Of a stretch of DNA of 64,000 nucleotides, positions 16,885 through 62,163 are shown one piece after another. Both the position numbers and the translations under genes were made by a program. The stretch covers positions 1-64,000 of the forward strand of contig JANYDW010000051.1 in the NCBI GenBank assembly GCA_025363455.1, in the 5' to 3' direction. Position 1 is the first letter of the stretch. The number at the start of each line of letters is the position of its first letter. This stretch comes from Oleiharenicola sp. (GTDB lineage Bacteria; Verrucomicrobiota; Verrucomicrobiia; Opitutales; Opitutaceae). Below the pieces are notes generated by a model that was not told the origin of the DNA, did not search any database, and was given only the letters and a program-made list of their open reading frames with translations.

Positions 16885-17335
16885 ACCGCGAAGGGCGCGA
16901 AGCACCGCGAAGGCCATGCCAGACGAGCTGCTTTATCGCGACGAAGTTTACCGCATCAATGGCGCATGCTTGGCCGTGCATAAGGACAAGGGGAACGGTT
17001 TTGTTGAACCCGTCTACCAAGACGCATTGGAGATAGAACTGGAGCTTTCCGGCATACCATTCGACGCCCAGCACAATTACCCGATCCACTACCGGGACCG
17101 GCCACTCAAGCACACCTACACCCCCGACCTGCTATGCTTCGAAAAAATCATCGTCGAACTTAAAGCGGCCAAAGCCTTGACCGACGAGCATCGGGCTCAA
17201 TTATTGAATTATCTCAAGGTCACGGGGCTCCAACTCGGCCTTTTGGTCAACTGCGGCTCCCATCCCCGCCTCCAGTGGGAACGGATCATCCTCTCCCAGT
17301 CCTAACTTTCGCGCCTCTTCGTGCCCTTCGCGGTT
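16884..17335. repeat. Palindromic island carrying the GxxExxY gene
   Basis: The left arm 16884-16911 (AACCGCGAAGGGCGCGAAGC then 8 bases) and the right arm 17308-17335 match as reverse complements at 24 of 28 positions. The 396 bp between them hold only the GxxExxY gene. The same arms occur without a gene at 18405-18481. Confidence 0.85.
16916..17305 (+). CDS. GxxExxY family protein, PD-(D/E)xK nuclease-like
   Basis: A 129-residue protein of the GxxExxY family. The name motif is Gly28-Glu31-Tyr34 in NGFVEPVYQDAL. Asp71 in TPDLL followed by Glu81-x-Lys83 in VELKAAKAL gives a PD-(D/E)xK-like core, so a DNA-related role is often proposed; no biochemical function is established. It sits within 10 bp of both arms of a palindromic island, between the NRS/ER-like gene and rfbB, and its base composition is visibly less GC-rich than the rfb genes. 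This suggests a cargo gene inserted into the sugar operon rather than part of the pathway. Confidence 0.85.
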   Translation: MPDELLYRDEVYRINGACLAVHKDKGNGFVEPVYQDALEIELELSGIPFDAQHNYPIHYRDRPLKHTYTPDLLCFEKIIVELKAAKALTDEHRAQLLNYLKVTGLQLGLLVNCGSHPRLQWERIILSQS

Positions 17336-19371: not shown

Positions 19372-19444
19372 GATTTCACGGTGGGAACGCCAAGGCTCAA
19401 GGCTTGATTTCCGTTTCCAACCCGAGCTCGCTCGTTGCCCAACA

Positions 19445-19639
19445 TCAAGACGTCTTCTGCTTGGGTCCCCAAGAACGAACGCGCTCCACGAGTTCCTCTT
19501 CCCTTGATTTTAGAATATCAGAAGCGGCTTCAGCAAATGAAATGACATTCGCGGAAGACCCCTCATCAGATAAAGGTCGCGATTGCGCCAATTGAGGTTT
19601 CTCCGAAAAATCCAACTGCATCTGTTCGCCAAGGTTCAT
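19445..19639 (-). CDS. Small protein coupled to the dCTP deaminase gene, unknown function
   Basis: A 64-codon frame starting in a 4-nt ATGA overlap with the end of the deaminase gene, the usual sign of translational coupling. The product is hydrophilic and mostly helical by composition, with SFAEAASDILKSREEELVER as the likely helix, and shows no membrane segment or known motif. Its base composition is AT-richer than the flanking sugar genes, like the deaminase. It could be a regulator, inhibitor or specificity partner of the deaminase. No homologue was recognised, and whether it is expressed is inferred only from the overlap. Confidence 0.55.
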   Translation of the reverse strand: MNLGEQMQLDFSEKPQLAQSRPLSDEGSSANVISFAEAASDILKSREEELVERVRSWGPKQKTS

Positions 19640-21189
19640 GCTATAGCAGGTTTGTGCGGGTCATCTTCGCGCCTGACAAGCTTTCGGCCATCGAGTTGCT
19701 GAATAATAAGCGCTTCTAACTCAGGCAGTGAGCGGAGGGAAATCGAAGTTTTCAAGAGAGCCGCCTGATTCTTCATCGTTGTCATCTTCCCCTCACCGTC
19801 CTTCCGATCAGATGTTTTAACAAAAAAGTCTGAATATCTAGAAGGACCTACGCCCACGAACGGGAATATGCAGACCTTTTCTTCCGATTTTGCCTCTTCA
19901 ATTAAGGCATCCGAATGAAGCTTTATGGCCAAGCTCTTCCGATAGGGCTCAATGTAAATCACCTCCTTAATGCCCGCGGCGATAATGTGCCGAGCGCAAG
20001 AATGACATGGGTATGTCGTAATGAAGATACGCCCCTCTTTTAATCGACTCCCGTTCGCATTGGCGCCCGCGTCTATGATAGCCATCATTTCCGCATGCAC
20101 AGCTCGTGAAAACTCAATGAGATCTTTGATGCGGGATTTCTTAATCGCCTGTTTCACATCTGCACGCAGAGTCTTGATGGAAGGAACAACAGATGCAACG
20201 GCATCGGTGATTAGATCTGCGAGTAGGTCTTTTTCATGATCGTTAAAACACCTACCAGCATCACGGTGCATGCAGCGATGATCTGATTGCACGCCTTCTG
20301 TGTACACCCCACCTTTCGCTTTCGGTACATCATTCCAACCGAGTCCAATAATATTGCCTTCCCGATCCGTAACCGCCGCTCCCACCTGCCTGGACAAGCA
20401 TCCCGAATTCATGGAAGCCGCGTAAGCATGATACATCGCAGTCTCTTCTCTTGTTGGAGTCACAATTCGTGAATTCGTGATCAAATGAACCACGCGATCC
20501 AATGAAGCTTTGAGCTCAGTTGTATTGCTGTTCCCAGCCTGTACAAAAAAATCTGAAAGCGGATAAGTTTCCCTCACCTCCTGCCCATGAGCAAAATCTT
20601 CTCCGGAATCTGTATCCATCAAGAGCGATATAGCTTTTTCATCAACCCCACGCGATTTCAGCGTCCGCGCGCGATCCTCGGGTGATGCATGCACGCCGAT
20701 TAAAACGAAAAGTCGACCGTATACAGCTCGTAGAAGCTCCAACTCTGCAGTATTTTTTATAGAATCCAGTATGTGGCAGAAGCGTATAGGCGGAGGTCGG
20801 GTGGCTTCCTTTGGCGTCTCATCAGCCCGTCGAATCGCGATCTGTTTTATCGCAAGTTCAGCAAGCAACGTAGGAGCATGTAATTTTCTCAGCTCGTTCC
20901 CGCTATCGATGAGGTATTTGTAGCGATTGTGTTTATCCGGGTCGGTCGGAGCTGGACCACAGTATTCTTCGATGAAGCTGCTAAGCTTGATGATCTGCGG
21001 ACGATAATTGTACTTTTGTTCAAGTAGTTCCTTAAGAATATCCGCTACTGTTCTCAAGGGCGCACCAATGGCGCCGCACAATCCAATCACAATTTCCTTC
21101 GAGTGCGTGTCCCTAATCTTTACGAGGGTGTCTTTCTCGAAAAGCTCTCCAGTCTGCGGTGTAGGGGCGATCTCCTTTAATGCTGACAT
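19636..21189 (-). CDS. Anti-phage dCTP deaminase (DcdV/AvcD family)
   Basis: A 517-residue two-domain protein. The N-terminal P-loop-kinase-like domain starts with EIVIGLCGAIGAPL (residues 32-45), a degenerate nucleotide-binding loop without the usual GK[ST]. The C-terminal domain is a zinc cytidine/deoxycytidylate deaminase with His365-Ala-Glu367 and Pro394-Cys395-x2-Cys398, preceded by a Cys/His-rich insert (HRCMHRDAGRCF). Family members deaminate dCTP and deplete nucleotides during phage infection. The ATG at 21189 is chosen; 21264 would add 25 unconserved residues. It is AT-richer than its glycosyltransferase neighbours and points against them, which suggests transfer. The known Vibrio systems are held off by a small RNA; none can be recognised here. 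Confidence 0.88.
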   Translation of the reverse strand: MSALKEIAPTPQTGELFEKDTLVKIRDTHSKEIVIGLCGAIGAPLRTVADILKELLEQKYNYRPQIIKLSSFIEEYCGPAPTDPDKHNRYKYLIDSGNELRKLHAPTLLAELAIKQIAIRRADETPKEATRPPPIRFCHILDSIKNTAELELLRAVYGRLFVLIGVHASPEDRARTLKSRGVDEKAISLLMDTDSGEDFAHGQEVRETYPLSDFFVQAGNSNTTELKASLDRVVHLITNSRIVTPTREETAMYHAYAASMNSGCLSRQVGAAVTDREGNIIGLGWNDVPKAKGGVYTEGVQSDHRCMHRDAGRCFNDHEKDLLADLITDAVASVVPSIKTLRADVKQAIKKSRIKDLIEFSRAVHAEMMAIIDAGANANGSRLKEGRIFITTYPCHSCARHIIAAGIKEVIYIEPYRKSLAIKLHSDALIEEAKSEEKVCIFPFVGVGPSRYSDFFVKTSDRKDGEGKMTTMKNQAALLKTSISLRSLPELEALIIQQLDGRKLVRREDDPHKPAIA

Positions 21190-21392
21190 AGTTCTGTGTC
21201 GGTGGCCCCCGACAGCGCTTTCATGCAATACAAACCAAATGATAGTTACAAGCCTGTCATCCATCCATAAACTCAGGCGACGTACCTAGCCGCCGGGCCG
21301 GATTTTAGGGCGTGGGATTGACGCAGCGCTGAAGAACGGTTCTTTCGCCAGTTTTGGCTCCGCTTTCTTCTACCGACCCGCACACTGCCTCC

Positions 21393-44410: not shown

Positions 44411-45025
44411 ATGGCTCTCGCAAAAATCACCTCCGTCTCCGGCCGCGCCGTCAACGTCCCGGGCAACGACATCGACACCGACCGCATCATCCCCGCGCGC
44501 TTCATGAAGTGCGTGACCTTTGACGGCCTCGGCGAATTCCTCTTCTACGATGTCCGCAAGGACACCACCACGGGCAACGACACGAACCACCCGCTGAACG
44601 ATCCGCGCTTCAAGGGCGCCACGATCCTCCTTTCCGGCGCCAACTTCGGCTGCGGTTCCTCGCGCGAGCACGCCCCGCAGGCGATCCAGAAATACGGCTT
44701 CAAAGCTGTCATCGCCGAGAACTTCGCCGAGATCTTCTTCGGCAACAGCATCACCCTCGGCATGCCGCTCGCCTGCGCCAAGCGCGAGGACATCGCCAAG
44801 ATCGCCGCCGCCGTGGAAAAGAATCCCGCCACCGAAGTCGTAATCGACGTCGTGAAGCAGGAAATTCGCTTCTCCGGCCAGACCGTCCCCGCCCAGATCC
44901 GCGACAGCGCGCGCGACGCCCTCGTCAACGGCCGCTGGGACGCCATCGGCGAGCTCCTCGACGGCGTCCCTGCCGTGACGGAGACTGCGAAAAAGCTCCC
45001 CTATCTGACGGCGGCCAGTACCTGA
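44411..45025 (+). CDS. leuD: 3-isopropylmalate dehydratase small subunit
   Basis: Partner of LeuC in leucine synthesis. 204 residues, normal for the family. It shows GNDIDTDRIIPARFM, GANFGCGSSREHAPQAI (the substrate-binding SREHA block) and AVIAENFAEIFFGNSITLGM. It reads in the same direction as leuC, separated from it by a strong inverted repeat. No other leu gene lies in the window. Confidence 0.95.
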   Translation: MALAKITSVSGRAVNVPGNDIDTDRIIPARFMKCVTFDGLGEFLFYDVRKDTTTGNDTNHPLNDPRFKGATILLSGANFGCGSSREHAPQAIQKYGFKAVIAENFAEIFFGNSITLGMPLACAKREDIAKIAAAVEKNPATEVVIDVVKQEIRFSGQTVPAQIRDSARDALVNGRWDAIGELLDGVPAVTETAKKLPYLTAAST

Positions 45026-45185
45026 CGGTATCAAGCCGGACCACCACAGCCGGCAAGGAAATGCGGTGGGCAGTGATGAGCTGAACGAGTTAAGCCCAGG
45101 GTCGGTGATGGATACAGTCCAAAGGTAGCTAGATCGTCGGACTCCCTTACAAAATATAGCTCCGTGGATGGGTGATTTAAAATTA

Positions 45186-45201
45186 TGGCAAATAATTTGC
45201 T
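45186..45201 (+). promoter_or_regulatory. Sigma-54-like promoter upstream of the PEP-CTERM gene
   Basis: TGGCA-N6-TTGCT has the exact -24/-12 spacing of a sigma-54 promoter, with GG at 45187-45188 and GC at 45199-45200. Transcription would start near 45212, leaving a leader of about 110 bases. Sigma-54 with the PrsK/PrsR pair is known to control PEP-CTERM genes in other bacteria. The surrounding 296-bp gap is AT-rich and holds no gene. Confidence 0.5.
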
Positions 45202-45269
45202 GGCAAACAGGAATGCTAGTAATTGATTTGCAAGTTTTTGTGAAGAAAAAAGGCAGAGAGCTCGGATAC

Positions 45270-45286
45270 AGGCCAGAATCTGGCCT
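45270..45286 (+). repeat. Perfect 17-bp palindrome in the PEP-CTERM gene leader
   Basis: AGGCCAGA and TCTGGCCT are exact reverse complements around one A. It lies 36 bp before the start codon at 45322 and downstream of the sigma-54-like promoter, so it could be an operator or a small RNA hairpin. Confidence 0.55.
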
Positions 45287-45321
45287 TCCTCCTGCTAAAC
45301 CTCATTTTCGAACTCTCTTTA

Positions 45322-45999
45322 ATGAAAAATCTGCTCCGCACTTCGTTTCTCGCCCTCTGCCTGACGTCCGGTCTCTTCGCCGACAGCTTTAGCGTTTCCT
45401 CGATCAACGGTGGTGCTGCGACGCGATCCCCAAAGCTGAACTTCGACACCTTGGTACTGGGGAATTCCGCGCAATGGGCGGACGCAACGCTCCACGTCTC
45501 CTTTACCGGCACAGGCCAGGTCGTGCAAGGCGCCGCCAGCGGCCTCTATGCAGCGCCCTTCGTCTCGGGCGGCAATGGCTTGGGCTTCGGCAGTCCCGAT
45601 CAACCGAATGGAGTGGACTCTACCAAGTACTTGAGCACGGGCATTGGCTCCGTTGTCTTTGATTTTAGCACCCACCAGACTTACTTTGGCCTGCTGTGGG
45701 GTTCAGTGGACAACTACAACACCCTTTCGTTTTACAATGGAGCAAACTTGGTCGGCTCATTCACGGGCACCAATATTTGGACCAGCGCGAACGGCAATCA
45801 AGGTCAGCAGGGCACATTTTATGTGAACTTCAATGACCTCAACGGTTCGTTCAACAAAGTCGTCGCGAGCAGCACCCAATACGCTTTCGAATTGGACAAT
45901 GTCGCTTACAGCGGACGCAGTGTTCCGGATGGCGGAGCCACCCTGACGCTGCTCGGTCTTGTCTTTGCTGGTTTGGCTGTGTTCCGCCGCAAGCGCTGA
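45322..45999 (+). CDS. Secreted PEP-CTERM (VPDSG-type) sorted protein
   Basis: 225 residues. It has an N-terminal signal peptide (NLLRTSFLALCLTSGLFA) and a C-terminal tail VPDGGATLTLLGLVFAGLAV with a final RRKR, which is the VPDSG-CTERM form of the exosortase sorting signal found mainly in Verrucomicrobiota. The middle is rich in Ser, Gly, Asn and aromatic residues (TYFGLLWGSVDNYNTLSFYN), as in secreted beta-sandwich proteins. After export it should be cut and processed by an exosortase; none is encoded here. It has its own sigma-54-like promoter, so it is not part of leuCD. Confidence 0.85.
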   Translation: MKNLLRTSFLALCLTSGLFADSFSVSSINGGAATRSPKLNFDTLVLGNSAQWADATLHVSFTGTGQVVQGAASGLYAAPFVSGGNGLGFGSPDQPNGVDSTKYLSTGIGSVVFDFSTHQTYFGLLWGSVDNYNTLSFYNGANLVGSFTGTNIWTSANGNQGQQGTFYVNFNDLNGSFNKVVASSTQYAFELDNVAYSGRSVPDGGATLTLLGLVFAGLAVFRRKR

Positions 46000-46322
46000 T
46001 TGCGGGTGGCACCGTGAGCGGGCAGCCGCACCGGTGGTCCATCGGGAACCGGGACCGCCACGAGTAGAGACTTCCGTTACTAAAAAGGTCGCGTCGCCTT
46101 GTCCAAGTCGCCCGCGGTGGTCTCAAGCACAAACAATGGATGCCGCGCGCCTAAGTCCGACAGCCTGCATCGACCGCCACTGCAATTTGTGCAAACGAAC
46201 CCGCCACCAGGGATAGTGTTAGCCTAACGGCAGTCTGGCCGGTGCCGGACAAGACGGAAACGTTGGCAAGGCCTTCTTGGTTTGCGCCCTCGCGCCCCGC
46301 CCGTAACGTACCCCCACCCCGC
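46000..46322. other. Intergenic stretch with no clear gene
   Basis: A 323-bp gap between the PEP-CTERM gene and the transporter. The frame of the transporter stays open to 46242 but lacks family resemblance there. No RNA gene, strong hairpin or repeat family member was recognised. Confidence 0.5.
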
Positions 46323-52774: not shown

Positions 52775-53749
52775 TCAGGCGTTGACCGCCGACTTGGCCG
52801 GGTTGAGCGCCACGGGCTGCTCGGCCGGGGCCACCTGCGGCACCGGCTGGGCGACTTCCTCGGCGAACCCGAAAGTAAGGGTAATTTCCTCAGCGATGGC
52901 CGCCTTTTCTTGACCGACCCGGATCTGGCCCTCGAACGTGGCCAGCGGGGATTTGAGCCGCTTCGGCTTGATTGAGAGGCTGAGCACGTCGCCCGGGCGG
53001 CAGACGCGATGGCAGCGGACGCCTTCGCAGGAGGTGAAGAAAATTGTACGATGGTCGACCGTCTTTCCGGCCTCGCCGACCTGACCCTCGATGAGGAAGA
53101 GGACCGCGAGCTGGCCGAGCGCCTCCAGCATGATCGACGCGGGCAGGACTGGGTTGTCCTTGAAGTGACCCTGCAGGAAAAACTCCTGGCCGCTGATCTT
53201 GTACTTGGCGTTGGCGCCATGGGCGTTAACCGAGGCCTCGCCGAGAAACAGGAAGGGCGGCTGGATCGGCATCACGGACACAATCTGCTCGATCGGAATA
53301 AACTTGGTGGGTTTGGGCAGGGGCAGGCCGCGCACCTTGCACTCAATAAACGTCTTTACATCGCCCACCGTACGAAGATGGCGCAATTCCTCATTGTTGA
53401 TGGTCATCTGCAGCACATCCTCCACGAGGATGACGATTTCCATCATGGTTAGCGAGTCGATGCCCAGATCCTCGATGACCCGCAGGTCGTCGTCGGCATC
53501 CTTCAGCTTGGCACGGAGATCCGGTTCAACGTAGCGCTCGATGATGCCAAGCACGATAGCCGGGAGGTGCTCGGTGTTTCCGGTTTTCCGGAACTGAGCG
53601 GCCGCCTCATAAGTGGCTGCGGAACAGCGCTTCAGCGCTTCACGCAGGTTTGTATCATCTTCGGCGGTGAACGGTTTCAGTGTGACGCCGGAATGGGTGT
53701 TAACGGACTGGGCCATTGGGGGACAAGATATGTTCTCCCTTGCTGACAT
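52775..53749 (-). CDS. Fusion of acyl carrier protein and FabZ-like dehydratase
   Basis: 324 residues; ATG 53716 is an alternative start. Residues 60-140 form an acyl carrier domain with the phosphopantetheine site Ser99 in DLGIDSLTMMEI. Residues 150-300 form a hot-dog dehydratase with His195 in LQGHFKDNPVLPASIM and Glu209 in LEALGQL, the FabZ catalytic pair. The last 25 residues are Pro/Ala-rich. A carrier joined to its own dehydratase is not the usual FAS-II arrangement, where AcpP and FabZ are separate. It heads the lipid operon and presumably carries the chain that the ketoacyl synthase and SDR act on. Confidence 0.88.
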   Translation of the reverse strand: MSARENISCPPMAQSVNTHSGVTLKPFTAEDDTNLREALKRCSAATYEAAAQFRKTGNTEHLPAIVLGIIERYVEPDLRAKLKDADDDLRVIEDLGIDSLTMMEIVILVEDVLQMTINNEELRHLRTVGDVKTFIECKVRGLPLPKPTKFIPIEQIVSVMPIQPPFLFLGEASVNAHGANAKYKISGQEFFLQGHFKDNPVLPASIMLEALGQLAVLFLIEGQVGEAGKTVDHRTIFFTSCEGVRCHRVCRPGDVLSLSIKPKRLKSPLATFEGQIRVGQEKAAIAEEITLTFGFAEEVAQPVPQVAPAEQPVALNPAKSAVNA

Positions 53750-53890
53750 GTAAATCCCAAAAATCCTCCATCACTAGTGTGAAATATCATGAATCAGCGT
53801 TGATTTTAGCTTGTTGACTCGGCGTGCGATGCACGACGACATGCCGCCCCTGCCGGCCGCTGATCCAAGTTCACCCACTTTTTAATTTTC
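53750..53890. promoter_or_regulatory. AT-rich divergent promoter region of the lipid locus
   Basis: 141 bp between the minus-strand ACP-FabZ gene and the plus-strand GT4 gene. It is clearly more AT-rich than its surroundings, with a GGAGG-like site on the minus strand about 16 bp before 53749. Both operons are probably started from here, but no single -35/-10 pair stands out. Confidence 0.35.
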
Positions 53891-55075
53891 ATGCCGCCAA
53901 AAGGGTCAAGTTTCTCAGGCCGTTCCCATCCTAGTCTAATCCTTGTCACGCATGAGTACTACCCACATCGCGGGGGGATCGCGGTCTACTCGGCCGAAAT
54001 GGCGCGGGCGGCCCACGAGTTAAACTACCGGGTCGAGGTCTGGGCTCCGGCCCTGCCTGCTGGCGTGCCGGAACCCGTGTCGCCGTTCCAGGTGCGACGG
54101 CTGCCGTTGTCGGGCGATCATAGTCTCCGCAGCCAGTGGCGCATGGCCCGGGAATTGGTCGCACACGCCGACCGGCTGAATGACGCCACCCTTTACATTC
54201 CCGAACCCGGTCCCTTGCTCGCGATGCTGCTCCTGCAGTACTTCGATACCATCCGGCCAGCCCGGCTGATGCTAACCTTCCACGGTTCGGAAATCCAACG
54301 CCTGGCCTCCCGCCGGCTCTTGCGCTGGAGTTCCAACCACTTGCTGGCCAAAACCACCCGCATCAGTGTGGTGAGCGAATTTGCCCGCCAGTTGCTGCAG
54401 AACCATTTCCCATCGGCCGCCGAAAAGGTCGTGGTCACCCCCGGCGCGCTCCGCCCCGATCTTCGGCACCAACAATCGTCGCCCGCCGCCCTGCCGGGGG
54501 CCAAGACTGTCATCCTGACTGTCGCCCGGCTCAATCCGCGCAAAGGTCAGCTGGAGGTCATCAACGCGCTCAAGGCCCTCCCCGCCAACCAGCGCTCCGC
54601 GCTCGAATACTGGCTCGTCGGGGCACATGGCAAAGAGAACTACGACAACCTGCTTGTTGCCGCCGCCGCTGATGCCGGTTTCCCGGTTAAATTCTTGGGC
54701 GACATCCCCGACGAACAACTCGGAGCTACTTATGCACAGGCTGATATCTTCGCCATGACGAGCATGCCGCACAAGCACAGCGTCGAAGGCTTCGGCCTGG
54801 TCTATTTGGAGGCGGGCGCCCATGGTCTGCCTATCGTCGCCCACGCCATTGGCGGTGTGCCGGAAGCGGTCGTGGACGGGGTGACCGGCCTGTTGGTCGC
54901 GCCTGGCGACACCCCTGCCCTAACCACGGCCTTTGCCCGGTTGCTCCTCGATATCCCGCTGCGCCGCCGGCTCGGCGAGGCGGCCCGAACCCGCGCCCTC
55001 AGCCGCACCTGGCGTGATTCAGCTCTGACCTTGTTTGGGCAACCGCACTCTGCCACCTTTGGCAAGGTCCTATGA
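53891..55075 (+). CDS. GT4 glycosyltransferase
   Basis: 394 residues. It shows LVTHEYYPHRGGIAVYSAEM (the glycine-rich GT-B acceptor loop), LTFHGSEIQRLASRRLL, ILTVARLNPRKGQLEVINAL and SVEGFGLVYLEAGAHGLPIV with the E-x7-E-like donor site. It overlaps the thioesterase gene by ATGA and is divergent from the ACP-FabZ operon, so it is likely part of the same lipid pathway. It may add a sugar to the lipid product, next to the GT28 enzyme. Confidence 0.88.
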   Translation: MPPKGSSFSGRSHPSLILVTHEYYPHRGGIAVYSAEMARAAHELNYRVEVWAPALPAGVPEPVSPFQVRRLPLSGDHSLRSQWRMARELVAHADRLNDATLYIPEPGPLLAMLLLQYFDTIRPARLMLTFHGSEIQRLASRRLLRWSSNHLLAKTTRISVVSEFARQLLQNHFPSAAEKVVVTPGALRPDLRHQQSSPAALPGAKTVILTVARLNPRKGQLEVINALKALPANQRSALEYWLVGAHGKENYDNLLVAAAADAGFPVKFLGDIPDEQLGATYAQADIFAMTSMPHKHSVEGFGLVYLEAGAHGLPIVAHAIGGVPEAVVDGVTGLLVAPGDTPALTTAFARLLLDIPLRRRLGEAARTRALSRTWRDSALTLFGQPHSATFGKVL

Positions 55076-58412: not shown

Positions 58413-60323
58413 ATGAACGAAAACCAATTCTGGCACAGCACCGACGGCCAGATCCTCACCGTCAAGGCCAAGGGCACCGATCGCGCCACCCTCTCTCTCG
58501 CGTTCTGGCCCCGCCACCCGACCGAGCTGGACTTCATGAAGTCCCATCTGGCCACCCTCCGCTTCACCGAGCGCAGCTCGCTCGCCCGCATCGGTATCGA
58601 GTTGATCCTCCAAGGCAAACCCACCCTGGACGGCAACCGCGTTCTCCTCAGCGTCGAGGCCTTCCTCTACGACCTCAGCTTCCCCAATGCCCCCTATTGG
58701 CAGAAACTACTTCGGCCCGGCGTCCCGGTCGGCCGGCTTTTCCACGCTCCGGCCCCTTCCAAACTCACTTCCACCGAGATCTGGACCGCCATCAAGGAAA
58801 ACCTTCTCAAGCTGCCCAACACGATCTCGATCGACAGCTCCGGGCGCGTATTCTTCACCCCTCACCCGGTCAGCTACACGCTCAACCCCCGCCTCAGCCG
58901 CATCAATTTTGAGCATATCGTTTCGGGCTACGCGGGCCGCAGCTTCCTCGACAAGGTCCAGGTCCGTCACGACGCCTCCCCGCTCACCATCCCGCCGCAC
59001 TCGGGCGTCCTCACCAGCTGCTCCATGTACCTCCGCGAGCACTACGTGATGCTCAGCCCGGGCGAGGGCAACTTCGGCCTCCACACCTCCGCCGTCCTGC
59101 TCGATCCCATCAAAACTTCCGGCACCAACATCATGCTTGAGGTCTACAACACCGGCGAGCAACCCGTCGTCAACCCGATGGTCTCGGTCGAAATCTTCCG
59201 CGCCCCGCCCCCCGAAGATCCCGAGGCCAAGACCCTCGTCAAGAAACGCCTGCGTCTCCTCGGCACCGTCAAGAGCCTCTACAAGTGCATGGATACTTCG
59301 CCCGCGGTGGAACTCGCCGAGGCGAAGCCCAAGACCAAGATCACTGTCCGCGGCCAGAGTGCCACGATGGAAAATCGCTCGGTGGTGGTGCGCGCCAACG
59401 ACGAGGACCTGAAGAAGATGCTCGCCGCCGACGCCTGTCCGCTCGGCGCCCGCACCATGATCCAGGCGCTCGATTCCAAGAGCGAAGATGCCGACACGCT
59501 CGTGGTCGACTATTTCCCCGACCTGCTGGAACACACCGAGCTGGTCACCCGTCTCGGCGATATGAAACCCAAACGCCTCGTTTTCCGCAAGGCCTCGCGC
59601 ACGCACGGTTACTTCCTGTCGAGCAATGCCCACGCGCGCCTCGACATGTTCCACTCCCTGGGCATCCCGGTCTACTGGTATGACGAAATGACGAAGGATC
59701 TCTACTTTCACACCTACCGGCGCGACCATGGGTTCTTCGTCCGCGAAGAGGCGGCCCGCAAATTCCAGGAAGCCACGATCCTCGCTTTCTACGGATCGGC
59801 CGTCGGCCTCGACCAGGCCGACACCGACCGCATCTCGAGCCTCGTCAACCAGCTCACCGGCTTTATGGGCGGCAATCTTGGCGTCCTCACCGGCGGCGGC
59901 GGCGGCGTCATGCGCCTCGCCACCGAGACCGCCCGCAGCAAGGGCGCGCTCACCGGCGCGTGCTTCCTCGAGCTCGAGGCTCAGCCGCCCGAACTGGGCG
60001 TGGATTTTTTCAACACTTTCCAGGAAAACTCCCGCCACTTCCGGCAAAAATGGTTCGAGGCGGCGGACTTTTGCATTTTCAACGTCGGCGGCGTCGGCAC
60101 GCTTGAGGAAATCGGCATCGAGCTCTGCAACCTCAAGCTCGGTATTCGTCCCCGCGTCCCCTACGTTTTCTTCAACGCCAAGTTTTGGGGCGACCTCCGC
60201 CGCCAGGTGAACACCATGATCAAGGAGAAGCGTTCCCCCGCGTGGATGAACGACTACATCCTCTTCACCGACGACCCCGCCGAGGTCATCGCCTTCTACC
60301 GCAAGACGCTGAAGGTGTTGTGA
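58413..60323 (+). CDS. LOG-family (lysine-decarboxylase-like) domain with a long unknown N-terminal region
   Basis: 636 residues from ATG 58413; a TTG start at 58335 would add 26 unlikely residues. Residues 1-430 are of unknown fold. The C-terminal 190 residues form a Rossmann domain with LTGGGGGVMRLATETARSKG and FNVGGVGTLEEIGIELCNLK. These correspond to the GGGxGxM and PGGxGTxxE motifs of LOG (cytokinin-riboside phosphoribohydrolase) proteins, with Val in place of the usual Pro. LOG enzymes cut nucleoside monophosphates. The extra domain is several times larger than in standard LOG proteins (about 190-200 residues). The frame after its stop begins 4 bp later. Confidence 0.75.
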   Translation: MNENQFWHSTDGQILTVKAKGTDRATLSLAFWPRHPTELDFMKSHLATLRFTERSSLARIGIELILQGKPTLDGNRVLLSVEAFLYDLSFPNAPYWQKLLRPGVPVGRLFHAPAPSKLTSTEIWTAIKENLLKLPNTISIDSSGRVFFTPHPVSYTLNPRLSRINFEHIVSGYAGRSFLDKVQVRHDASPLTIPPHSGVLTSCSMYLREHYVMLSPGEGNFGLHTSAVLLDPIKTSGTNIMLEVYNTGEQPVVNPMVSVEIFRAPPPEDPEAKTLVKKRLRLLGTVKSLYKCMDTSPAVELAEAKPKTKITVRGQSATMENRSVVVRANDEDLKKMLAADACPLGARTMIQALDSKSEDADTLVVDYFPDLLEHTELVTRLGDMKPKRLVFRKASRTHGYFLSSNAHARLDMFHSLGIPVYWYDEMTKDLYFHTYRRDHGFFVREEAARKFQEATILAFYGSAVGLDQADTDRISSLVNQLTGFMGGNLGVLTGGGGGVMRLATETARSKGALTGACFLELEAQPPELGVDFFNTFQENSRHFRQKWFEAADFCIFNVGGVGTLEEIGIELCNLKLGIRPRVPYVFFNAKFWGDLRRQVNTMIKEKRSPAWMNDYILFTDDPAEVIAFYRKTLKVL

Positions 60324-60327
60324 GGCT

Positions 60328-60867
60328 ATGCTGTCATTCAGAAATGATCCAGACGACGCCTTCCGAAATGCAGTGCGGCAGGAATTCTCGCCGCTGGCCG
60401 ATGAGTGTGGCGGCACGCTCAAGCAGATCGAACCGTTTATCTTTGGGTTTGTTACCGACTATGCCGTTTTAACCGTCGGAGCATACCCGGGCCACTTCCG
60501 GGGAATCTGTGTCAAACTTCGTCGCCGAGAATACCGCGAGCCCCTCTCGGTTAAAGATAGTGCGGATATTGGCCTCGCAAATGTTGAAGCATTTGTGACC
60601 GGGAAGGTCTCGGACGTTCACATACGGCGTCAACGGTGGTCATCCGGAGAGATCGCAGAGGAAGTAATGGGTTTGGCAAACCTCACCCGGCAAGTCGGCT
60701 TACCCTTCTTAACCTCGCAAGCTGCCGACTGGACAGGCTTGCGGGCATTCGTTGACGCCAAGATTGAGCAAGCCTTGAGCGAGGCTCCATGGAAAAAGCA
60801 TATAGCTGAACTGGAGGCTCAACCTCGGCTGGACGCCCGGCTTCATCCGTGCCCATCTGTGTCATCC
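60328..60867 (+). CDS. Unknown domain that runs in frame into purD
   Basis: About 180 codons with no stop before purD, so either a separate small gene that lost its stop or the front part of a fusion protein. The sequence has DECGGTLKQIEPFIFGFVTD, ICVKLRRREYREPLSV and WKKHIAELEAQPRL. No family was recognised. Composition is visibly less GC-rich than the flanks. It ends at a repeat of the GTGGCTAAAAATC type (60849-60880), as seen at other islands. It may be cargo that merged with purD; a product of 611 residues is possible. Confidence 0.5.
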
Positions 60868-60880
60868 GTGGCTAAAAATC
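60849..60880 (+). repeat. Island-end repeat at the junction with purD
   Basis: CATCTGTGTCATCCGTGGCT followed by AAAAATC matches the right ends of the islands at 44364-44400 and 40449-40478 (GTGGCTAAAA). Here it is read in frame and supplies the probable GTG start of purD. Confidence 0.6.
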
Positions 60881-62163
60881 TTCCTTCTTCCGTTCTGATT
60901 GTCGGCGCCGGCGGACGCGAACACGCCCTCGCCAAGGCCCTCGCCCTCTCCCCAGCCAAGCCCCGCCTGCTCTGCGCGCCGGGCAATGCCGGGATCACCG
61001 ACGACGCCATCTGTTTCCCCGTGGCGGCCGACAACGTCGCCGGGCTTGTCGAGCTGGCCCGGCGCGAGAAGGTGGAGTTCGTCGTCGTCGGCCCCGAGGT
61101 GCCGCTCTCACTCGGCCTCGTGGACGCGCTGATGCAGGCCGGCATTCCGGCCTACGGCCCCCAAGCCGATGGCGCCCGCCTCGAGGCCTCCAAGGTTTTC
61201 ACCAAGCAGATCCTCCTGAAATACAAGATCCCGACCGCCCCGGCCGGCATCTTCACCGACGTCGGGCCCGCGCTGGCCTATGTGCGGATGCGCGGCGCAC
61301 CCATCGTCATCAAGGCCGACGGCCTCGCCGCCGGCAAGGGCGTGGTCGTGGCGTTGACGCTCGCCGAGGCCGAGGCAGCCGTGCGCGACATGCTCGCCGG
61401 CAACAAATTCGGCTCCGCCGGCAGCCAGATTCTCATCGAGGACTGCATGTTCGGCGACGAGACCTCGATCCTCGTCGTCGTGTCCGACCGCGACTACGTC
61501 ATTCTCCCCGTCTCGCAGGACCACAAGCGCATCGGCGATGGTGACATCGGCCCCAACACCGGTGGCATGGGTACCTACTCGCCCGCCGAGGTGGTTACGC
61601 CCGCGCTGCTGGACCGCATTGATCGCGAAATCGTGAAACCTTCCGTCGACGCCATCGCCGCCGAGGGCATCAAGTTCCGCGGCACCCTCTTCATCGGCAT
61701 CATGCTCACGGCCGAGGGCCCCTCCGTCCTGGAATACAACACGCGCTTCGGCGACCCCGAAACCCAGGTCGTCCTTCCGCGCATCAAGAGTGACGTCCTC
61801 GCCCTGCTTTGGGCCGCGGCCCAAGGCGAACTCCAAGGTATGAAGCTCGAAGTCAGCACCGACGCCGCGATCTGTGTTGTCATCGCCGCGAAAGGCTACC
61901 CGGACAATTATCCGAAGGGCGACGTCATCACCTTCCCTCCCGTCTCCAGCCTCCCGTCTCCGGTCTCCATCCTCCACGCCGGCACGGCAAAAAATCCGGC
62001 CGGCCAGATCGTGATGAATGGCGGACGTGTGCTCGGTGTCACCGCCCTCGCCCCGACGCTTCGCGAGGCCGCCGACCGCGCCTACGCCGTTTGCGAAAAA
62101 ATCCAGTGTGCGTCCAAGTATTATCGCCGCGACATCGGCGCCCGTCAGCTTAATCGCCAATGA
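60868..62163 (+). CDS. purD: Phosphoribosylamine-glycine ligase
   Basis: Second step of purine synthesis: joins glycine to phosphoribosylamine with ATP. From GTG 60868 it has 431 residues, normal for PurD. It shows VLIVGAGGREHALAKAL, VVGPEVPLSLGLVD, ADGLAAGKGVVVA of the ATP-grasp domain, QDHKRIGDGDIGPNTGGMG and EYNTRFGDPETQVVLPR. Near the C terminus FPPVSSLPSPVSILHAGT contains a short insert encoded by two copies of CCTCCCGTCTCC, where other PurD proteins go more directly to the FHAGT strand. The frame is open upstream to 60328. Its stop overlaps the next start by ATGA. Confidence 0.93.
   Translation: MAKNLPSSVLIVGAGGREHALAKALALSPAKPRLLCAPGNAGITDDAICFPVAADNVAGLVELARREKVEFVVVGPEVPLSLGLVDALMQAGIPAYGPQADGARLEASKVFTKQILLKYKIPTAPAGIFTDVGPALAYVRMRGAPIVIKADGLAAGKGVVVALTLAEAEAAVRDMLAGNKFGSAGSQILIEDCMFGDETSILVVVSDRDYVILPVSQDHKRIGDGDIGPNTGGMGTYSPAEVVTPALLDRIDREIVKPSVDAIAAEGIKFRGTLFIGIMLTAEGPSVLEYNTRFGDPETQVVLPRIKSDVLALLWAAAQGELQGMKLEVSTDAAICVVIAAKGYPDNYPKGDVITFPPVSSLPSPVSILHAGTAKNPAGQIVMNGGRVLGVTALAPTLREAADRAYAVCEKIQCASKYYRRDIGARQLNRQ
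61936..61968 (+). repeat. Short tandem repeat inside purD
   Basis: CCTCCCGTCTCC occurs at 61936-61947 and 61950-61961, followed by a partial GGTCTCC. It is translated in frame as PPVSSLPSPVS. Confidence 0.75.

Follow-up and report, generated by a model that had tools for sequence, protein, structure and literature searches.

With moderate confidence, we propose that a DcdV/AvcD-family anti-phage dCTP deaminase gene and the small gene overlapping its 3' end in an Oleiharenicola sp. genome form a protein-partnered cassette, in which the small protein would hold or gate the enzyme and could dock on the replication sliding clamp. The window referred to throughout is the whole stretch of DNA analyzed, 64,000 nt (positions 1–64,000) of contig JANYDW010000051.1 (assembly GCA_025363455.1; Opitutaceae, Verrucomicrobiota). 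The features discussed are as follows.

19372..21392 (approximate boundaries, no strand): low-GC cassette whose insertion separates rfbA from a glycosyltransferase gene, the two being adjacent in 2 of 9 congeners examined
19636..21189, minus strand: DcdV/AvcD-family anti-phage dCTP deaminase, 517 aa (NF041025, PADLOC, aligned starts)
21055..21084, minus strand: degenerate P-loop GLCGAIGAPL of the N-terminal domain (alignments, Foldseek)
20089..20097, minus strand: HAE zinc/catalytic motif, residues 365–367 (invariant in a 25-sequence alignment)
19996..20010, minus strand: PCHSC zinc motif, residues 394–398 (25-sequence alignment)
19445..19639, minus strand: candidate small partner ORF, 64 aa, family A (leave-one-out HMM; relatives at the same place)
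19636..19639, minus strand: ATGA overlap of deaminase stop and small-ORF start (sequence)
19607..19624, minus strand: QMQLDF codons, sliding-clamp-binding-like motif (pattern counts)
19535..19549, minus strand: NVISF codons, resembling a stretch of family B (by eye; profile comparison)
19469..19537, minus strand: predicted C-terminal helix of the small protein, residues 35–57 (AlphaFold2)
21190..21392, minus strand: upstream gap with no convincing AvcI-like RNA signal (Rfam, folding, conservation)

By profile search, the window deaminase is a member of the DcdV/AvcD anti-phage dCTP deaminase family: NF041025 scored 468.6 bits against a curated equivalog cutoff of 400, and the PADLOC dCTPase profile matched with an E value of 4.4e-166. 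A sequence-only reading of this DNA had described a protein of this type with a zinc deaminase domain and a P-loop-like N-terminal domain, and each element was borne out. The HAE and PCxxC zinc motifs are intact in the C-terminal deaminase domain, with H365, A366, E367, P394, C395, H396, and C398 all invariant among 25 aligned deaminases. The AlphaFold2 model (pLDDT 82.7, pTM 0.83) matched dCMP deaminases and the P-loop-kinase-like proteins 3h0k, 3lw7, and 2if2 in a Foldseek search of the PDB (matches reported with residue ranges absent), although Walker A is degenerate and has no lysine, as is the case by eye in 14 aligned relatives; G42 is invariant in alignments of both 15 and 25 sequences. 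The sequence match to the deaminase domain spans residues 249–419. The longest reading, from an ATG at 21264, would give 542 aa with the same 3' end at 19636, but alignment with relatives favors the internal ATG at 21189. A housekeeping dCMP deaminase, which the sequence-only reading had named as the identity that would overturn its own, was ruled out: the anti-phage family was the best match and housekeeping profiles fell far below their cutoffs (ComEB, 44.6 bits against 219.45). In the window's own genome, the family profile counted four matches, of which one other among those listed scored 55.9 bits, and other deaminase matches were short (26.3 bits over residues 352–432). Eight of 288 genomes of the phylum, including this one, carry a match above the family cutoff.

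Base composition and synteny give good support for horizontal co-transfer of the deaminase and the small ORF as one insert. GC content is 0.483 for the deaminase and 0.482 for the small ORF compared with 0.628 for the window, and GC3 is 0.48 and 0.46, respectively, compared with 0.85 for rfbA and 0.73 for the glycosyltransferase gene. Counting this one, 21 genomes of the genus were searched; 15 had an rfbA match, and 10 loci were returned. No deaminase ORF lay within roughly 1.0–1.5 kb after rfbA in the nine loci from other genus genomes, three of which have the glycosyltransferase gene. In two of these nine (L161 and L163), the distance from the rfbA match to the glycosyltransferase start is 81 and 101 nt, compared with 2,024 nt in the window; of the roughly 1.9 kb inserted, the two genes thus occupy nearly all (1,745 nt). 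The transfer first suggested from the lower GC and reversed direction relative to the rfb and glycosyltransferase genes is supported by both the GC/GC3 contrast and this adjacency. A search for insertion-site repeats gave no clear target duplication, and no tRNA was found in the window. One congener (G122) has an N-terminal deaminase remnant at L012:1498–2034 (residues 9–182 matched, 47% identity). Further low-GC dips occur in the window at 45001–46000 (0.535), 53001–54000 (0.564), and 60001–61000 (0.575), and a 129-codon ORF at 16916–17305 appears to resemble GxxExxY proteins.

The 64-codon ORF coupled to the deaminase by the ATGA overlap matched no family in NCBIfam, PADLOC, Pfam, or PHROGs, in keeping with its first description as being of unknown family. 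Loci were gathered if they contained a deaminase that was nearly complete or present as a long fragment; of the 99 obtained, 84 remained after those at least 95% identical were dropped. In many, a short ORF with Q-L-x-L-x-F near its start was seen by eye to abut the deaminase 3' end. When a profile was built from 14 such ORFs, without the window ORF and with the seed ORFs set aside, the window ORF ranked first of 6,862 ORFs (E = 1.6e-5). In leave-one-out trials, the missing row ranked first in only 6 of 15, the weakest being L034 (rank 44) and L005 (rank 414), and we therefore regard this family (family A) as fast evolving with soft edges. The 18-row profile detects family A in 18 of the 84 loci, each a profile row or a copy of one, and L068 and L071 have a likely relative by eye. 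With the profile frozen, four later loci with deaminases above the cutoff had the ORF directly 3' of the deaminase as the top four ranks among 183 ORFs from six loci (E = 0.0008–0.012); the other two, with deaminases below the cutoff, had no family A ORF.

Close copies of the family A ORF are under codon-level constraint. The small ORFs of L059 and L073 align without gaps over 66 codons and differ at 23, 19, and 43 sites in codon positions 1, 2, and 3, respectively (pN/pS 0.37); the other two pairs of the trio to which they belong gave 0.39 and 0.47, and the L059/L060 deaminases gave 0.31. DNA identity alone fails to single out the small ORF because it is 52% between L059 and L060 (12 gap columns) and 51% over the 200 nt beyond (80 gap columns). 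Taken as sequence evidence, these results give good support for a real gene of an unnamed family rather than a chance reading frame.

The small ORF is, by sequence, a feature of the whole branch and is not unique to the window locus. A tree built from the 84 deaminases places the window in a 14-row branch (SH-aLRT 98) of Verrucomicrobiota, Bacteroidota, one Pantoea plasmid, and viral contigs, and all 14 rows have a family A relative at the same place; 13 of these are rows of the 18-row profile, many chosen by eye, and the 14th (L009) copies one. The four later loci confirmed with the frozen profile are not among the rows of this tree. The ORF thus recurs beside related deaminases in 14 of 14 branch rows and 4 of 4 later loci; its absence there had been set out beforehand as a reason to abandon the idea of a partner. 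No family A ORF was found beside the above-cutoff deaminases of other branches (L007, L008, L010, L011, L052, L053, and L140). Among 372 genomes of the window's order, five have a deaminase above the cutoff and four have a strong family A match (E about 1e-12 or better), each adjoining the deaminase, these four matches being themselves profile rows. Two marginal matches (E = 0.035 and 0.093) are internal to much longer frames (839 and 770 codons). In the fifth genome (G937, L140), the deaminase belongs to another branch and a family A ORF is absent. In the genomes searched, the small ORF is thus tightly linked to the deaminase. No additional above-cutoff deaminase came from scans of the G498 and G499 families, which yielded three matches below the cutoff (L141–L143), and two scans of viral contigs gave no additional contigs. 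G1253, a genome of the same family as that of L003, has two deaminase copies, L150 and L155, each with its own downstream family A ORF. L005, from the window's order (G128), has an in-frame TAG within the deaminase while its small ORF is still open, and seven sub-cutoff relatives from the phylum of L003's genome (L054–L058, L153, and L154) have open frames of 567–679 codons.

A second small family, family B, consists of ORFs of 56–62 aa that precede the deaminase instead of following it. Its hosts are E. coli, Klebsiella, Photobacterium, and Vibrio plasmids, E. coli chromosomes, a phage scaffold, and some viral contigs. The B profile detects it in 11 of the 84 loci, 10 of them profile rows, and L083 was added by eye; it is present in 12 of the 17 rows of its deaminase branch, and the upstream side of the other five (L065, L070, L072, L074, and L078) is invisible because these loci begin at a contig end. 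Comparisons of the two families suggest, short of proof, that they are remotely homologous. The best non-seed match of the A profile among 5,114 ORFs was the B ORF of L063 (E = 0.0026–0.0038). Profile-profile alignment of A (L072 left out) with B scored 17.1 (p = 0.0044), with an HH-suite probability of only 7.8% that rises to 15.4% when L072 is included; none of 200 column shuffles of B reached 17.1, the maximum being 11.1. The downstream ORF of L072, a locus drawn at the base of the B branch, combines features of both families (QLDLDF near its start and W at its end), and the NVISF stretch of the window ORF resembles a part of family B. Coding constraint is also visible in family B, with third-position excess in L046/L079 (16/14/28 differences at codon positions 1/2/3) and L038/L041 (15/19/33) and a weaker excess in L046/L127 (23/20/30) and L079/L127 (29/25/32).

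Other small families neighbor the deaminase on other branches. Nine of the 84 loci (L040, L043, L082, L084–L087, L091, and L103) have a small downstream ORF, mostly with a W-P-x-W-K-like motif; two members were scanned against PHROGs, and both L043 (E = 1e-14) and L085 (E = 0.0012) matched the unnamed phrog_38465. This family (family C) was rejected as a relative of A, the relationship being unsupported by hhalign (p = 0.34–0.41), though only 1 of 100 column shuffles scored as high. A larger downstream ORF of 172–202 codons (class D; L042:4640–5158, L128:4060–4599, L080, and L099) has QLSLF, QLSFN, QGLLF, or QGMLF motifs; the L042 and L128 ORFs had no Pfam match, and we presume that the class is perhaps DUF488-like.

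The motif near the start of family A offers a possible link to replication. The bacterial clamp-binding motif is QL[S/D]LF (QxxLF), and the Hda hexamer is QLSLPL (PMC12309361). The pattern Q[LM]x[LF]x?[LFI] occurs within the first 40 residues of all 18 family A rows and of 19 of 2,437 other ORFs of 45–110 aa, the first count being inflated because the motif guided the eye in picking rows. Of the four later loci, two have the strict pattern and all four have a looser version, Qxx[LIF]x?[LFI] (background 172 of 2,437). L139 has QLSLPL itself, and the QMQLDF of the window, which fits the hexamer only loosely, appears with less certainty to resemble a clamp-binding motif. AlphaFold2 modeled the small protein with low confidence (overall pLDDT 69.2, pTM 0.32) as a C-terminal helix at residues 35–57 (mean pLDDT 71, 86, and 81 in blocks 31–40, 41–50, and 51–60) and little else regular; a mostly unstructured N-terminal part, if real, would suit a short linear motif but proves nothing.

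We therefore favor a two-gene, apparently horizontally acquired anti-phage cassette that would work as follows. Once activated by infection, the deaminase is predicted to convert dCTP/dCMP to dUTP/dUMP. The small ORF is probably translated by coupling to the deaminase, yielding a dedicated 64-aa partner that most likely binds the enzyme and keeps it off or gated until phage takeover, filling the place reported for the AvcI RNA in Vibrio. Through its N-terminal motif, the partner may tether the pair to the sliding clamp, in which case the switch would sense replication. The family, the ATGA overlap, and the horizontal transfer put forward in the sequence-only reading all stood; control of the deaminase by the small protein we continue to infer.

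The same motif could instead belong to an activator or targeting subunit that would recruit the deaminase to the replisome, with dCTP depleted at the site of phage DNA synthesis. The QLSLF-like motif of the larger and different class D ORF is consistent with this, as is the position of the small gene after the deaminase, antitoxin genes more often preceding toxin genes. Against this, the probable homolog, family B, lies ahead of the deaminase and has no such motif by eye; we consider an activator unlikely.

Control by an RNA, encoded upstream or supplied by the stretch of mRNA that contains the small ORF, with the ORF itself incidental, would follow the Vibrio precedent. In Vibrio, AvcI is reportedly active without translation of its ORF. 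Two reports place AvcI upstream of avcD (PMC9455884) and describe an RNA that binds and inhibits AvcD, with a minimum functional length of about 171 nt, and phage protection by the E. coli ETEC system (PMC10511110). Family B ORFs are close to this minimum at 171–189 nt including the stop (annotated starts where given, L076 apart), and at L076:2727–2861 the B ORF ends prematurely (44 aa) while the deaminase next to it is intact, as an RNA-based mechanism would allow. Over the full upstream 300 nt, L059 and L060 are 49% identical (204 columns, 192 gap columns), slightly above the 41–47% of five shuffles, but their nearest 150 nt are 40% identical, the shuffled level. In the window gap, Rfam gave no match, its only one in six loci being a plasmid replication element in L127; the predicted folding of the upstream region is matched by shuffled sequence (z = 1.07, with 169 of 200 shuffles at least as stable), and the region has no promoter-like site (shuffle mean 1.9) and one terminator-like site (shuffle mean 2.4). 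Six family A upstream regions have no conserved block and one invariant column. There is also little room for an upstream RNA, since a mechanically called ORF of at least 120 aa ends 28–300 nt upstream in 11 of the 15 family A loci listed. Together with the third-position excess and protein-profile conservation of the small ORF, these results make RNA control at the window locus quite improbable, though an upstream RNA with no conserved sequence may exist there. In family B systems, RNA and peptide could both act, and we do not contest the RNA result.

That the small ORF travels in a mobile cassette as a passenger with no functional tie to the deaminase, as its want of a match in the four databases might suggest, is very hard to credit given its place beside the deaminase across phyla and the lack of a strong match elsewhere in the 372 genomes.

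The AvcID/DcdV-DifV type III toxin-antitoxin systems of V. cholerae, V. parahaemolyticus, and E. coli ETEC have a deaminase of the same family and, like the window locus, a small element hugging the deaminase gene; here, a protein gene that overlaps the deaminase on its downstream side is the partner candidate, and no convincing RNA signal was found upstream. ETEC H10407 plasmid p58, which we take to be from the strain tested in the AvcID work, has a 61-codon B ORF 12 nt 5' of the deaminase. It lies upstream, the side given for AvcI in PMC9455884. The PADLOC dCTPase defense profile matches the window deaminase, to which the window adds a second conserved gene. Phage defense by dCTP deaminase was reportedly described by Tal in 2022. 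In type II toxin-antitoxin systems, an adjacent small protein neutralizes the toxin by binding; for the window pair, adjacency and overlap of the genes are what the sequence shows. Family A seems to share a short Q-L-x-L-x-F/L type motif with the clamp-binding proteins Hda (QLSLPL) and SocB of SocAB. SocAB likewise links the clamp with a toxin-antitoxin system (PMC12309361 and PMC9690074), whereas the putative motif here is in the small partner rather than the toxin and QMQLDF is only a loose fit. Among the papers listed by our literature searches, none was noticed that describes a protein partner or clamp link for DcdV/AvcD.

For the silencing and triggering of DcdV/AvcD, the literature covered concerns the Vibrio and E. 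coli systems, and the answer there is an RNA. A small protein partner conserved in a branch that includes Verrucomicrobiota, Bacteroidota, and a Pantoea plasmid would provide a second means of control. A wider picture, which we hold only tentatively and think doubtful as a whole, is that A and B are one fast-evolving family giving protein control across phyla, including the loci described as RNA controlled, with A riding the clamp as a replication-sensing switch. With a probable relative upstream in E. coli/Vibrio-type loci, the RNA-versus-protein question becomes testable by recoding, and the clamp-binding motif, if true, would tie nucleotide depletion to replication.
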